The position numbers and the translations under genes are program-made. Shown here piece after piece: positions 1,446 to 63,751 of a DNA stretch of 64,000 nt. Positions within the stretch are counted from its first letter, which is position 1, and the number at the start of each line of letters is the position of its first letter. The notes beneath the pieces were generated by a model. The model searched no databases. It saw only the letters and a program-made list of their open reading frames with translations, and was not told the origin of the DNA. The stretch comes from an uncultured Clostridia bacterium (GTDB taxonomy: Bacteria; Bacillota; Clostridia; Oscillospirales; Ruminococcaceae), in the NCBI GenBank assembly GCA_947623585.1, contig CANQHA010000002.1:1-64000 (forward strand), read 5' to 3'.

Positions 1446-1560
1446 ATGAGAGGGGGAAAGGTATTCATCTTACCCGCTGTTGCAAAGTAGTCGCAGCGCA
1501 AAGCTGGCGAGGTGAGGATTTATACCTGCGTTTGGCGAGAGCCGGACTGAGTGGGGAAAA
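1446..1560. repeat. Repeat module related (inverted) to 37305-37415
   Basis: GGGGGAAAGGTATTCATCTT...GGTGAGGATTTATACCTGCGTTTGGCGAGAGCCGGACTGAGTGGGGAAAAGGTATTC matches the reverse complement of 37305-37415 over most of its length. Confidence 0.75.
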
Positions 1561-1800
1561 GGTATTCAATCGCTCCATCTTGCGATGGCAACAGAAGCTG
1601 GTTTTGCAGCCAATCGGACTTTCGCCGCCATGCCGAATAGGCGGCTCGTCCTCTTGGACAAAACCCCGCGTCTGTGCGAGGCGCCCCTGCGGGTTTTGTG
1701 CGCATGGAGCGTTCAGGGGCATAGCGTGGAAGAAAAGGTATTCATCGTTGCCGGCTTGCCGCATTATACATACTTTCTGCGGGCGACGAACCAACCTGTT

Positions 1801-2026
1801 AAAAGGTATTCAATCGCTCCCTCTTTCGAGGGAGTGATTTCATACTATTTTAAATCACCCCACCCCCCCGCCGAGGTTTTGTAGTGAAGCACTACATGGT
1901 ACCGCCCCCGCCCCTCGAGGGGCGGGGGCGTCGATATGTGTTCCTCCACGCAGGCAACATACCAGGGGTGGGGTGATAAACGATAGTATCCATATTTTCC
2001 GGCAGAGGAAAATATGGATACCTTTT
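1801..2026. repeat. Composite palindromic (cloverleaf-type) intergenic element, copy A
   Basis: AAAAGGTATTCA ... TGGATACCTTTT termini; outer hairpins ATCGCTCCCTCTTTCGAGGGAGTGAT and CATATTTTCCGGCAGAGGAAAATATG; stem TCACCCCACCCC/GGGGTGGGGTGA; central CGCCCCCGCCCCTCGAGGGGCGGGGGCG. Confidence 0.9.
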
Positions 2027-2117
2027 AAGCGGCTGTTCAAGCTCCGCAGAAAGTATGAAAATGCAGCAAGTCATATGCTTGCGGCCGGCGCTGCTGCGGG
2101 GAAGATGGACACCTTTT
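2023..2117. repeat. Tail module next to copy A (also at 8697-8790; inverted relative at 1735-1806)
   Basis: TTTTAAGCGGCTGTTCAAGCTCCGCAGAAAGTATGAAAATGCAGCAAGTCATATGCTTGCGGCCGGCGCTGC... nearly identical to 8697-8790. Confidence 0.8.
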
Positions 2118-8476: not shown

Positions 8477-8700
8477 AAAAGGTATTCAATCGCTCCCTCT
8501 TTCGAGGGAGTGATTTCATGCTATTTTAAGTCACCCCACCCCAGCGCACTTTCTACGAGTAGGGACAAATGCAACGCCCCCGCCCCTCGAGGGGCGGGGG
8601 GCTTCATAAAATGGGCCTATCCGCAGTCCGTTCGCCGGGGGTGGGGTGACTAAACGATAGCATCCATATTTTCCGGTAGAGGAAAATATGGATACCTTTT
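8477..8700. repeat. Composite palindromic element, copy B
   Basis: Same architecture and outer arm types as copy A; central CGCCCCCGCCCCTCGAGGGGCGGGGG. Confidence 0.9.
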
Positions 8701-8790
8701 TAGCGGCTGTTCAAACTCCGCAGAAAGTATGAAAATGCAGCAAGTCATGTGCTTGCGGCCGGCGCTGCCGCGAGGAAGACGGATACCTTT
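8697..8790. repeat. Tail module next to copy B, near-identical to 2023-2117
   Basis: TAGCGGCTGTTCAAACTCCGCAGAAAGTATGAAAATGCAGCAAGTCATGTGCTTGCGGCCGGCGCTGC. Confidence 0.8.
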
Positions 8791-13613: not shown

Positions 13614-13834
13614 AAAAGGTATTCATCTTCCCCGCTTCCGCGGGTAAGAAGAATGCTATCGCTCATCACCCCACCCCCTCCGCACTACCTGCGAAAGGAT
13701 AGTTTGAGAGCCCCCTCCCCTTTAAAGGGGAGGGGGCGGTTCACTTGTCCCTACCCGTAGAAAGTGAAGCGGGGGGTGGGGTGGCTCCCAATAGCATCCA
13801 TATTTTCCGGCAGAGGAAAATATGGATACCTTTT
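13614..13834. repeat. Composite palindromic element, copy C
   Basis: AAAAGGTATTCATCTTCCCCGCTTCCGCGGGTAAGAAGAATG ... central CCCCCTCCCCTTTAAAGGGGAGGGGG ... CATATTTTCCGGCAGAGGAAAATATGGATACCTTTT. Confidence 0.9.
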
Positions 13835-25349: not shown

Positions 25350-25568
25350 AAAAGGTATTCCCATTTTCCTTGCGGGAAATGGGAATGCTATTTGAGCCAC
25401 CCCACCCTCACCGGGGTTTGTAGTGAAGCACTACATGGCAAAGCCCCCGCCCCTTGAGGGGCGGGGGCTCTCAAACTTAGCTGTTCCGCATGAAGTTTTG
25501 CGGGGGTGGGGTGACTTAAAATAGTATGAAATCTTTACCTCGTGAGAGGGAAAGATTGAATACCTTTT
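25350..25568. repeat. Composite palindromic element, copy D
   Basis: AAAAGGTATTCCCATTTTCCTTGCGGGAAATGGGAATGCTA ... GCCCCCGCCCCTTGAGGGGCGGGGGC ... GACTTAAAATAGTATGAAATCTTTACCTCGTGAGAGGGAAAGATTGAATACCTTTT. Confidence 0.9.
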
Positions 25569-28119: not shown

Positions 28120-28238
28120 GACGTGGGTGTATAGTCTGAGAAGCTATGCTCAAAGCGCTCACAAGGCGGTTAAAACGCAGAAAGTACAACATTCGCAAAT
28201 GTTTCAAATTCGACAATGTGCGGGCGCTTTGAATCATG

Positions 28239-28316
28239 GACGCGATTGCTTTTCCGCAAGACGACCGAGCCGATTCTGCATGGCGAGGGAAGTCGAGCGG
28301 CAAAAAGCAACGCTTC
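28239..28316 (-). repeat. GAAGCGTT...AATCGC palindromic module (partner of 8865-8941)
   Basis: GACGCGATTGCTTTTCCGCAAGACGACCGAG ... GTCGAGCGGCAAAAAGCAACGCTTC. Confidence 0.75.
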
Positions 28317-28327
28317 CATTGAGGTTA

Positions 28328-28353
28328 CGAGTCCTATTATCCTCACCAAAAAA
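28328..28353 (+). repeat. Exact 26-bp duplicate of tRNA-Val 3' end (original 28063-28088)
   Basis: CGAGTCCTATTATCCTCACCAAAAAA at both positions, 265 bp apart. Confidence 0.95.
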
Positions 28354-28378
28354 GTCCTTGCCGTTTGGCGAGGGCTTT
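28350..28378 (+). terminator. Terminator-like hairpin after duplicated tRNA end
   Basis: AAAAGTCCTTGCCGTTTGGCGAGGGCTTTTT. Confidence 0.65.
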
Positions 28379-28404
28379 TTGCCAATAAGAGGGAGGATGC
28401 CATC

Positions 28405-29646
28405 ATGTCTTTATTCGGGAAAAAAGAAAAAGAAGAAATCGCGCGCTTGAAAGCACAGCTAACGCCGGAACAAATTCAAATTGCCGATGTTACCGCAGAG
28501 TTGGACCGCGTAAAAGCCCAGCTTCAAAACGTGCAGCAAAGTTTGCTGCAAGCTCAGAACGAGTTGTCAGTTAAAAGGGCTCAAATCATTGAAACCGATG
28601 AAGCGGTTCTTATGCAGTCGTTTGGATTTTACACGCCGCATTATAGCTATACAACCTCGGAACAGTATCAAAACAGATTAAAAGCTATCCGCGACGAGCA
28701 AAAGGAAATGATAAAATCAGGAATAGCTGCAACGGGAAACATGAATTGGCAGGTTAACGGCAGCGCTTCAAAGGGCAAAAAAATGGTAACCGATATGCAA
28801 AAACTCCTTTTGCGCGCCTACAACGCAGAGTGCGATGATGCGATCGAACACGTTAAATTCAACAACGTAGAGGCGTGTCAAAAGAAAATCTCAGCTTCAG
28901 CAGAGGCTATATCGAAGCTCGGTTCAATGATGAGCATAGCTATTTCACCGAGATATATTTCGTTGAAAATGAACGAACTGTTTTTAATGCATGAATACCA
29001 GTTGAAAAAGCAGGACGAAAAGGAAGAGCAGAAGCGCTTGCGTGAAGAAATGCGCGAACAAGCAAAGCTGCAAAAAGAAATAGAAAATTCGCGCAAAGAA
29101 CTTGAAAAAGAGCAAACGCACTATCAGAACGCGCTCAATAAATTAAATCAGCAATTTGCTTCCGCCGGAGAAACCGAAAAAGAGATTCTTGCCGAAAAAC
29201 GAGCCGAAATAATGGAGCAACTGTCTGAGTTGGACAAAGCAATAAAGGACGTAGACTATCGTGCGGCTAATCAAAAGGCGGGCTATGTATATGTTATTTC
29301 AAACATCGGGGCGTTTGGCGAGGGCGTATATAAAATCGGCATGACGCGCCGTCTTGACCCGATGGAGCGCATAGATGAGCTTGGGGACGCTTCGGTGCCG
29401 TTTGATTTTGATATCCACGCCATGATATTTACCGAGGACGCGCCAAAGCTGGAAGCCGCTTTACATAAAGCGTTTGAAAACAGAAGAGTCAATATGGTTA
29501 ATGCCAGACGAGAGTTTTTCAAAGTGTCTCTTGACGAAATCAAAAATGTTATACGTCAAAACTTCGATAAAACCGTAGAATTCGTTGACGTGCCTGATGC
29601 CGAACAATACCGCCAGACTTTGTTGATGCGTAACGCTCAGCAATAA
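28405..29646 (+). CDS. DUF4041 / T5orf172 (GIY-YIG-like, Mug113) domain protein
   Basis: Coiled-coil N-terminus; C-terminal GYVYVISNIGAFGEGVYKIGMTRRLDPMERIDELGDASVPFDFDIHAMIFTEDAPKLEAALHKAFENRRVN; RBS GGGAGG; supplied ORF starts earlier but RBS supports 28405. Confidence 0.88.
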   Translation: MSLFGKKEKEEIARLKAQLTPEQIQIADVTAELDRVKAQLQNVQQSLLQAQNELSVKRAQIIETDEAVLMQSFGFYTPHYSYTTSEQYQNRLKAIRDEQKEMIKSGIAATGNMNWQVNGSASKGKKMVTDMQKLLLRAYNAECDDAIEHVKFNNVEACQKKISASAEAISKLGSMMSIAISPRYISLKMNELFLMHEYQLKKQDEKEEQKRLREEMREQAKLQKEIENSRKELEKEQTHYQNALNKLNQQFASAGETEKEILAEKRAEIMEQLSELDKAIKDVDYRAANQKAGYVYVISNIGAFGEGVYKIGMTRRLDPMERIDELGDASVPFDFDIHAMIFTEDAPKLEAALHKAFENRRVNMVNARREFFKVSLDEIKNVIRQNFDKTVEFVDVPDAEQYRQTLLMRNAQQ

Positions 29647-29789: not shown

Positions 29790-30013
29790 AAAAGGTATCC
29801 ATATTTTCCGGCAGAGGAAAATATGGATGCTATCGCTTAGCACCCCACCCCGCCGCACTACCTGCGAAAGGAAAGTTTGAGAGCCCCCGCCCCTAAGAGG
29901 GGAGGGGGCGGCTCACTTATCCCTATCCGTAGAAAGTCCGACGGGGGAGGGGTGACTAAACGATAGCATTCGAAAAAATTCCGCCCCGAGGCGGGATTTT
30001 GCGAATACCTTTT
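29790..30013. repeat. Composite palindromic element, copy E
   Basis: AAAAGGTATCCATATTTTCCGGCAGAGGAAAATATGGATGCTATCG ... CCCCCGCCCCTAAGAGGGGAGGGGG ... CGATAGCATTCGAAAAAATTCCGCCCCGAGGCGGGATTTTGCGAATACCTTTT. Confidence 0.88.
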
Positions 30014-37085: not shown

Positions 37086-37310
37086 AAAAGGTATTCAATC
37101 ATTCCCTCTCACGAGGTAAAGATTTCATACTATTTTAAGCCACCCCACCCCCGCAGGACGTTTGTTAAAAAGATAGCAAAGCGAACGCCCCCGCCCCTCG
37201 AGGGGCGGGGGCTATCATACTTAGCCTTTCCGCAGAAAGTATAGCGGGGGTGGGGTGATAAGCGATAGCATTCTTCTTACCCGCGGAAGCGGGGAAGATG
37301 AATACCTTTT
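37086..37310. repeat. Composite palindromic element, copy F
   Basis: AAAAGGTATTCAATCATTCCCTCTCACGAGGTAAAGATTTCATACTATTTTAAGCCACCCCACCCCC ... CGCCCCCGCCCCTCGAGGGGCGGGGGC ... GGGGTGGGGTGATAAGCGATAGCATTCTTCTTACCCGCGGAAGCGGGGAAGATGAATACCTTTT. Confidence 0.92.
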
Positions 37311-37413
37311 CCCCACTCAGCCCGGCTTCCGCCAACCGCAGGTATAAATTCTCACCCCGCCGGCTTTTCTGCAACGTCTTCGCAGCGGCGTGAAGATAAA
37401 TACCTTTCCCCTC

Positions 37414-45700: not shown

Positions 45701-46930
45701 ATGAAAAGAAGTACGATCAAGAAGTATGCAAAATTGATTGTAAGAGTCGGCGCAAATGTTCAGAAGGGTCAGACGGTCCAGTTGACCTGCTCGGTCGATC
45801 AGGCTGATTTCTGCGCGCTTGTCGTTGACGAATGTTATAAAGCCGGCGCCAAGCACGTTGAAATAGATTGGGTCAATTACAAGGTCGGAAGAAGCAGGAT
45901 GCGCTATGAGACCATAAAAACGCTTTCCACCGTTCACAAGTGGCAGGAGGAAAAGATGAAATGGGCAGCCGAAGAGCTTCCTTGCAGAATTAACATAGTT
46001 TCGGAGGACCCCGACGGCTTCAAGGGCGTCAACCCCGCAAAAATGCAGAAAGTCTCGGTCAACCGCTATAAGATAACAAAGAAATATTCCGATCTTATGG
46101 AGTCGAAATATCAGTGGACGATAGCGGCGGTGCCCGGAAAGGAATGGGCGAGAAAGGTATTCCCCGGAATAAGAACGAGTCAGGCGGTCGAGAAGCTGTG
46201 GAAAGCGATCTTGGAGACGGTATACGTCACCGACGACAACGACCCGATCGAGGTCTGGAAAAAGGTCAACGAGGATTTCAAGAGCCGCTGCGAGAAGCTG
46301 AACGAAAATAAGTTTGAATACCTCGAATATAAATCCTCGAACGGCACCGATTTCAAATGCTGGCTCACCCCGAAATCAAAGTGGTGCGGCGGCGGAGAAT
46401 ATGACCTGAACGGGCGCTTCTTCAACCCGAATATGCCCACCATCGAGGTCTTCACCACCCCCATGAAAGGAAAGGCCGAGGGAAAGGTTGTCTCGACCAA
46501 ACCGCTTTCTTACGGCGGGCAGATGATAGAGAATTTCTCGATAACCTTCAAGGACGGCCGCGCGGTATCCTGCGAGGCAGAAAAGGGCAAGCAGCTTCTT
46601 GAGGAGATTTTGAATTCCGACAAGGGTTCGTCGATGATAGGCGAGCTTGCTTTGGTGCCGCAGGATTCTCCGATAAACAACCAGAACATTCTTTATTACG
46701 AGACGCTGTTCGACGAGAACGCAAGCTGCCACATCGCGCTCGGCAGAGGATATCGCGAGTGCATCGAGGGCTATGAGAACATGACCCACGACGAGCTTGG
46801 CGAGATCGGCGTCAACGAGTCGATGATACACGTCGATTTCATGGTCGGAGCGCCCGATCTTTCGATAGTCGGCCACACCTTCGACGGAAAGGACGTTCAG
46901 ATTTTCAAGGACGGAAACTTTGTTATCTGA
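45701..46930 (+). CDS. M29-family aminopeptidase
   Basis: Full-length M29 pattern: LIVRVGANVQKGQTVQL, ...FTTPMKGKAEGKVVSTKPLSYGGQMIENFSITFKDGR, IHVDFMVGAPDLSIVG. Confidence 0.94.
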   Translation: MKRSTIKKYAKLIVRVGANVQKGQTVQLTCSVDQADFCALVVDECYKAGAKHVEIDWVNYKVGRSRMRYETIKTLSTVHKWQEEKMKWAAEELPCRINIVSEDPDGFKGVNPAKMQKVSVNRYKITKKYSDLMESKYQWTIAAVPGKEWARKVFPGIRTSQAVEKLWKAILETVYVTDDNDPIEVWKKVNEDFKSRCEKLNENKFEYLEYKSSNGTDFKCWLTPKSKWCGGGEYDLNGRFFNPNMPTIEVFTTPMKGKAEGKVVSTKPLSYGGQMIENFSITFKDGRAVSCEAEKGKQLLEEILNSDKGSSMIGELALVPQDSPINNQNILYYETLFDENASCHIALGRGYRECIEGYENMTHDELGEIGVNESMIHVDFMVGAPDLSIVGHTFDGKDVQIFKDGNFVI

Positions 46931-62933: not shown

Positions 62934-63530
62934 ATGAGAGCACTTATCAACGGCGTCGAGCTGACGCTTGAGACCTCGCCCGAGCTTTTTTCGCCCTCGG
63001 CGCCCGATATCGGCACCCTTGCGATGCTCGATTCGGCGGAGATATCTTCAAGCGACAGGGTGTTAGATCTCGGCTGCGGCTGCGGGATAGTCGGAATATA
63101 CTGCGCGAAGAAATTCGGCTGCGAGGTCACGATGTGCGACGTTTTGCCGAGGGCCGCGGAGATCTCACAAAAAAACGCCGAGAAAAACTGCGTTTGCGCA
63201 AAGGTCTTTGTCAGCGACGGGTACGACGGGCTCCCCGACGGAAAATTCACGCTGATACTCTCGAACCCGCCTTATCACACCGATTTTTCGGTCGCAAAGA
63301 GGTTCATCGAGGGCGGCTTTGAGCGCCTTGAGCTTGGCGGCCGAATGATGATGGTGACAAAGCGGCGGCAGTGGTATGAAAACAAGCTGCGCGCGGTTTT
63401 CGGCGGGGTTAAGGTACGCGAAAAGGACGGCTATTTTGTTTTTACCGCTGAGAAACGCAGCAACCGGCCGCCTAAAAAGGAAAATCGCCGCGGCGGAATG
63501 TCTAAGAAGCTGAGGAGAAAGCGGGATTAA
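62934..63530 (+). CDS. Class I SAM-dependent methyltransferase (RsmC-like)
   Basis: VLDLGCGCGIVGIYCAKKFG, LILSNPPYHTDF. Confidence 0.9.
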   Translation: MRALINGVELTLETSPELFSPSAPDIGTLAMLDSAEISSSDRVLDLGCGCGIVGIYCAKKFGCEVTMCDVLPRAAEISQKNAEKNCVCAKVFVSDGYDGLPDGKFTLILSNPPYHTDFSVAKRFIEGGFERLELGGRMMMVTKRRQWYENKLRAVFGGVKVREKDGYFVFTAEKRSNRPPKKENRRGGMSKKLRRKRD

Positions 63531-63751
63531 AAGGTATTCAATCATTCCCTCTGCCGAGGTAATGATTTCATACTATTTTAAGTCACCCCACCCCCGCAAA
63601 ACGTTTGTCGGAAAGGGGCAAATGGAGAAGCCCCCGCCCCTCGAGGGGCGGGGGCTCTCAAACTTTCCTTTCGCAGGTAGTGCGGCGGGGGTGGGGTGAT
63701 AAGCGATAGCATTCTTCTTACCCGCGGAAGCGGGGAAGATGAATACCTTTT
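63529..63751. repeat. Composite palindromic element, copy G (overlaps preceding stop codon)
   Basis: AAAAGGTATTCAATCATTCCCTCTGCCGAGGTAATGATTTCATACTATTTTAAGTCACCCCACCCCC ... GCCCCCGCCCCTCGAGGGGCGGGGGC ... GATAAGCGATAGCATTCTTCTTACCCGCGGAAGCGGGGAAGATGAATACCTTTT. Confidence 0.92.

Follow-up and report, generated by a model that had tools for sequence, protein, structure and literature searches.

A repeat array between two convergent genes

In the genome of an uncultured Clostridia bacterium from the gut (2.07 Mb in 43 contigs), a CitMHS-type transporter gene (end at position 1408) and a NUDIX gene (end at 2152) converge on a gap that is filled by an array of modules at positions 1457–2116 of the analyzed window, a stretch of 64,000 nucleotides. 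Its flanks (1409–1455 and 2118–2150) are unique among the loci compared, none of which repeats them. An earlier note on this DNA had placed module boundaries at about 1456, 1557, 1736 and 1801, and the exact motif AAAGGTATTC indeed lies on the plus strand at 1457, 1558, 1734 and 1802, at most 2 nt away. The inverse boundaries that it placed near 2021 and 2112 are likewise present, as degenerate copies at 2017–2025 (GGATACCTTT on the plus strand, one mismatch) and 2108–2116 (GGACACCTTT, two mismatches).

The boundary is far more frequent than expected: the exact motif AAAGGTATTC occurs 14 times in the window compared to 0.14 expected from dinucleotide shuffles, and the boundary 12-mer AAAAGGTATTCA occurs 120 times in the genome (61 + 59), with no occurrence of the reversed control. 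Similar boundary-separated arrays are found at many other loci, the present one comprising four plus-strand and two minus-strand boundaries. One match to AAAGGTATTC, at 46153–46162, lies inside a coding ORF (45701–46930) and is probably a chance occurrence, not a copy.

A palindromic core with exchangeable slots

At the center of the array lies the core element (1801–2026, plus strand), an imperfect palindrome built from a fixed skeleton and exchangeable slots. From left to right, it comprises a terminal hairpin of family H1 (1812–1839, plus strand), assigned from its fold and from H1 covariation; the left skeleton arm ATACTATTTTAAATCACCCCACCCC (1842–1866, plus strand), which pairs with 1965–1989; the left inner module, slot A, of the GTTTTGTAGTGAAGCACTACATGG type (1869–1903, plus strand); a central GC hairpin, GCCCCCGCCCCTCGAGGGGCGGGGGC (1904–1929), in whose place congeners read GCCCCCTCCCC..; the right inner module, slot B, of the TATGTTGCCTGCG type when read from the right end (1930–1964, minus strand); the right skeleton arm GGGGTGGGGTGATAAACGATAGTAT (1965–1989, plus strand); and a right terminal hairpin of family H3 (1986–2021; CCATATTTTCC..GGAAAATATGG).

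To describe the family, we examined 58 genomic regions that contain other copies and extracted 54 cores, which were parsed by pattern. Their left half reads, in this order, AAAAGGTAT, terminal hairpin, ATGCTAT, spacer, CACCCCACCCC and inner module; the center is a GCCCCC(G/T)CCCC hairpin; and the right half continues with inner module, GGGGTGGGGTG, spacer, ATAGCAT, terminal hairpin and ATACCTTTT, so that it mirrors the slot order of the left half on the opposite strand. The terminal hairpins fall into five families, set post hoc from their first letters after inspection of the data: H1 (TCAATC..GATTTCA), H2 (TCATCTTCCCCGC..AAGAAGAA), H3 (CCATATTTTCC..GGAAAATATGGA), H4 (TCCCATTTCCC..GGGAAATGGGAA) and H5 (TCGCAAAATCCCGCC..TTTTAGCGAA).

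Folded as RNA, the core reaches −123 kcal/mol (z = −10.8). The H1 hairpins covary: across 25 distinct sequences, 93% of cells are paired, with a covariation of 0.243 vs 0.085 after shuffling. These compensating changes may stem from selection on the hairpin or from quasi-palindromes being corrected by template switching (PMC8794818, PMC7202029).

Genome-wide copies and shuffling of slots

The enlarged set holds at least 98 full core copies in the genome. Within the window, related copies on the plus strand lie at 8478–8790 (core H1/H3 plus layer d, see below), 13615–13833 (H2/H3), 25351–25567 (H4/H1), 29791–30012 (H3/H5), 37087–37407 (H1/H2 plus layer a on the right) and 63530–63750 (H1/H2), the first bases of the last being overlapped by the stop codon of a methyltransferase gene. 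The gene beside the copy at 29791 (28216–29646) encodes DUF4041 and T5orf172 domains; it is found at 85–87% identity in only two congeners, in other surroundings there, and is therefore probably mobile.

The slots are shuffled. Their combinations are distinct in 82 of 90 parsed copies, in a parse that calls spacers less well than the earlier one used for linkage. In the latter, linkage is high within contiguous slots (0.62 between hairpin and spacer, and 0.62 between the outer and inner halves of the inner module) and weak across the conserved CACCCCACCCC block (about 0.15–0.18). GC-rich blocks common to copies reach 26 nt. At one locus (L046, position 1178), a chimeric terminal hairpin combines H1 ends with an H2 middle, which, judged from its sequence, is a direct sign of exchange inside a hairpin. 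We also observed half-copies that extend to the central GC hairpin or barely beyond it (L007, L018, L024, L029, L034, L041, L055 and L057).

Outer layers and the wider inverted repeat

The core is surrounded by four outer layers. Layer a (1457–1557, plus strand) starts with AAAGGTATTC and the 5′ half of an H2-type hairpin (TCATCTTACCCGC), followed by an outer-arm module extending to TTTATACCTGCG..GAGTGGGG; relatives with 74–83% identity occur in about 10–12 other places, e.g., at 37390–37322 of the window and in L020. Layer b (176 nt; 1557–1732, plus strand) carries the boundary AAAAGGTATTCAATC and most of an H1 hairpin at its left and continues as a separate palindromic repeat (CAACAGAAGC..GCGTCTGTG) with a GC hairpin as its tail, reaching the next AAAAGG; 30 matches were found in 28 of the loci compared in this genome, the best at 86–92% identity. 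Layer c (68 nt; 1733–1800, plus strand) consists of a boundary, half an H2 hairpin and an outer arm running from CATACTTTCTGCGG to CCTGTT, and recurs in L002, L014, L030 and L033 at 94–100% identity over 48–50 nt. To the right of the core, layer d (91 nt; 2027–2117, minus strand) is an outer-arm module, CCGCAGAAAGTATG.., that ends in half an H2 hairpin and the boundary GGACACCTTTT; a 96% identical copy lies at 8704–8772, others occur in L037, L027 and L046, and about a dozen places match overall at lower identity.

Further repeats were seen in and around these arrays. Positions 1580–1672 belong to a second palindromic repeat family (GAGGG|CAACAGAAGCGGGTTTTGT..ACAAAACCCGCTTCTGTGG), noted also at L033, L016, L005 and L140. 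This family is present in about 28 of the loci compared and in congener G015, and it was seen as an insert within H1 stems and within the central GC hairpin. The outer flanks of L005, L020, L028, L041 and L042 contain additional repeats, AGAGGGAAACGGCGCGGCGTTGCGCCATTCGGCGCACAT and TTCCTTCACTTTTCTGTGCG..AGAAAAGTGAAGCGAAAAGACGCGCAA.

The segments to the left and right of the core had been proposed to be related in inverted orientation, and this is borne out: with the boundary ends left out, 1733–1800 aligns to the reverse complement of 2027–2117 with a local score of 39, compared to a maximum of 28 in 5,000 shuffles. The wider inverted repeat includes a perfect 14-bp arm pair (1769–1782/2044–2057), and 1733–2117 folded as DNA shows concentric pairing (z = −12.7). 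The nesting of the core in a wider imperfect inverted repeat is therefore real as sequence, but the repeat is not copied as a unit. Among the loci of this genome that were compared, this is the only one that combines layers c and d, and layers b and c are found together in three (here, L002 and L014), whose right-hand halves differ. The wider repeat thus results from the two flanks having drawn outer arms of one family (CATACTTTCTGCGG), and, as c and d are not linked as a pair, a simple insertion of the core into a single outer element already in place does not account for the array.

The earlier note had also suggested serial, boundary-directed insertion or accretion, of which one part holds. 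Layer c adjoins an H1-type core arm in all five loci, including this one, its outside neighbors differ, and the change in sequence between loci occurs at the AAAAGG boundary, which is what boundary-directed joining predicts. Serial insertion in its simple form is only partly right, since neither a pairing of left and right layers nor a target-site duplication is supported: the mean best direct repeat at copy edges, which are uncertain in arrays, is 2.17 vs 2.20 for mis-paired edges (p = 0.63). Other joins of layers and inserts fall at GAGGG|CAACAG and CACCCCACCCC, besides AAAAGG. At the outer boundaries, a terminal hairpin is represented by its 5′ half alone; these half-hairpins look like remnants of earlier elements, left by deletion or recombination, as much as fresh insertions.

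The same observations bear on whether the family is a classical MITE, that is, a defective insertion sequence with AAAAGGTAT terminal inverted repeats that is moved by a transposase, the arrays being serial insertions. As in MITEs, the elements are short (about 220 bp), non-autonomous, intergenic and clustered, and terminal inverted repeats (AAAAGGTAT/ATACCTTTT) bound at least 98 copies. Against this, no target-site duplication was detected, the layers are unpaired around cores, most copy edges do not end at AAAAGG, and no transposase with AAAAGGTAT ends was found in the genome among the five families searched. Y1_Tnp (PF01797), DDE_Tnp_1 and Cas12f1-like_TNB each gave no match, and an IS256-like match and two rve matches lack AAAAGGTAT ends. 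We therefore rate the MITE explanation as rather unlikely. Searches of phage and plasmid collections gave no match.

The two arms of a copy are unequal

Both arms draw on one pool of cassettes, yet the arms of a single copy differ, in every slot. In a first count, the same terminal-hairpin family was found on both arms in one of 54 copies, compared to 15 expected, and when hairpins were dealt within spacer classes, equal arms remained depleted (1 vs 5.8 expected, p = 0.003). As the loci of this count had been chosen by AAAAGGTATTCA, which excludes H3/H3 copies, we recounted after a whole-genome search for H3 arms (84 H3-like arms with at most one mismatch). Among the resulting 98 full copies, 93 could be classified, and a single one carries the same family on both arms, whereas 27 would be expected; H3, sought genome-wide, occurs on both sides in none of 60 H3 copies, while H4/H4, H5/H5 and H4/H5 copies are under-sampled beyond the loci compared. 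Even the sole equal-family copy (L011) carries two different H1 subtypes. The inner slots are likewise depleted of equal pairs (5 vs 15 and 1 vs 9 expected), with clustering at one cut-off (0.42).

Copies are not fully independent of one another, although the permutations assume that they are; the effect size, the variety of pairings and the congeners described below argue that descent alone does not explain the unequal arms. The pattern suggests that perfect palindromes are eliminated from the DNA whereas imperfect ones multiply. SbcCD is established to break a palindrome in the E. coli chromosome (PMC3315005; also work cited in PMC7999016), and the genome studied here encodes an SbcD homologue (173.9 bits).

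Congeners share the skeleton with other hairpins

The boundary 12-mer is at background in 59 relatives (0–4 copies each), and several congeners carry the same skeleton with other hairpins. The closest named genomes by lexA (~80% identity) are metagenome assemblies labelled uncultured Clostridia from rabbit gut, the rabbit being read from the sample name Lapin. We read ten complete congener copies, nine of which have arms of unequal sequence or length; in two of these nine, the arms are short hairpins differing only by a 4-nt insertion, and the tenth (L164) has similar short hairpins on both arms. Neither position nor hairpin sequence is conserved between congeners. In eight of them no array follows the NUDIX gene, although the neighboring genes differ and the exact site is not alignable; comparisons of the DUF4041 gene and of the NUDIX/lexA block similarly show that the neighbors are not conserved. 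One congener copy (G018, L157) seems to be interrupted, and the interrupting sequence is also found beside an rve-type transposase of the genome studied here (GTACGATTTTAGGATAGCACTACA, L239).

Assembly artefacts have to be considered in a genome of 43 contigs assembled from a short-read metagenome, in which chimeric joins at repeats such as the GC-rich blocks of up to 26 nt could mimic shuffling. These blocks are shorter than a read, and the majority of copies are internal to contigs and have different flanks to the left and to the right. Moreover, independent congener assemblies share the unequal-arm design, and misjoining would not cause a genome-wide shortage of equal arms. We consider this explanation very improbable.

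Position relative to genes and possible host function

The very stable branched fold and the H1 covariation would also fit a structured RNA or DNA that serves the host at transcript 3′ ends, in mRNA stability or in chromosome organization, with unequal arms keeping each hairpin self-folding rather than paired to the opposite arm. Copies lie nearer to gene 3′ ends (median 101 nt) than to 5′ ends (204 nt), and several half-copies that retain the central GC hairpin directly adjoin a gene end. Convergent gene pairs, however, are not enriched around copies (19 of 66, using a simple codon-score gene caller), Rfam yielded nothing relevant at the array at gathering or relaxed thresholds, and the family's positions and hairpin sequences vary between congeners as described. 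Template switching alone can keep hairpins paired (PMC8794818). A host function thus has little direct support, and we regard it as unlikely. A CRISPR-DR53 candidate from Rfam at 1807–1841 (20.8 bits, cut-off 45) was rejected as a chance match to an inverted repeat.

Discussion

The general kind, an interspersed mosaic palindromic repeat, fits the family well, as it is high-copy, intergenic, composite and rich in secondary structure. Palindromic extragenic units in composite arrays are also seen in BIMEs and REPINs. REP units are often tied to a Y1 transposase (RAYT), whereas a RAYT gene is absent from the genome studied here. They measure 20–40 bp (PMC3733652).

Neisserial intergenic mosaic elements (NIMEs), made of RS modules and dRS3 repeats, form mixed intergenic arrays with a short boundary repeat between modules that range from tens of bp to ~160 bp (PMC3898611). 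The array at 1457–2116 likewise has one boundary repeat recurring between its modules, but this boundary is AAAAGGTATTC and not the ATTCCC(N8)GGGAAT of dRS3 (PMC3898611), the main unit, a single large palindrome, contains slots and follows an unequal-arm rule, and no link to a phage integrase was found here. BOX elements of Streptococcus pneumoniae are modular, intergenic, strongly folded and clustered, number ~100 copies and insert into other repeats (PMC3049150), and the present family is equally modular, intergenic, strongly folded and clustered at ~100 copies. In contrast to the fixed end modules and tandem boxB of BOX, many alternative hairpins occur per slot here; the boxA-(boxB)n-boxC order is absent, the slots are palindromic without a tandem inner unit, and the target-site duplication reported for BOX was not found. 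The family resembles NIMEs and BOX elements in kind, but its sequences are not those that define either, and it does not show the duplication of a MITE. No description of it was found in the open-access literature searched.

We consider it probable that the family is a high-copy, non-autonomous, hairpin-forming intergenic mosaic repeat of the BIME/NIME/BOX kind, shuffled at short blocks and purged of perfect palindromes. Copies would have spread in the past; no mobilizing enzyme was found among the families searched. Then or meanwhile, recombination or template switching at the shared short blocks AAAAGGTAT, CACCCCACCCC and GAGGG would swap slots between copies, and outer layers would pile up at AAAAGG, often as half-hairpin remnants. 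Copies whose arms had grown alike would form longer perfect palindromes and be lost, presumably through SbcCD cleavage or deletion in replication, so that the copies that survive have unequal arms. Template switching would be expected to equalize the arms of a hairpin (PMC8604942, PMC8794818); purging must therefore outpace it.

Alternatively, unequal arms could be kept because the branched fold matters. In a further reading, which we deem quite improbable, they would be integral to the element and no by-product of palindrome loss: a dedicated process of recombination or copying would swap arm cassettes at conserved blocks, and only copies with differing terminal hairpins would be active or propagated. 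If the unequal arms are functional, they might provide, for example, a branched single-stranded or cruciform substrate for an enzyme that reads left versus right.

Under the reading that perfect palindromes are purged, the family makes the intolerance of bacterial chromosomes to long perfect palindromes countable, as a single genome offers ~100 natural copies whose arms come from one cassette pool and among which equal-arm copies are almost missing. It also provides a natural series for the origin of mosaic intergenic repeats such as BIMEs, NIMEs and BOX elements, which is hard to follow where alternative modules are few. Since each congener seems to combine the common skeleton with a hairpin set of its own, turnover between species can be followed.
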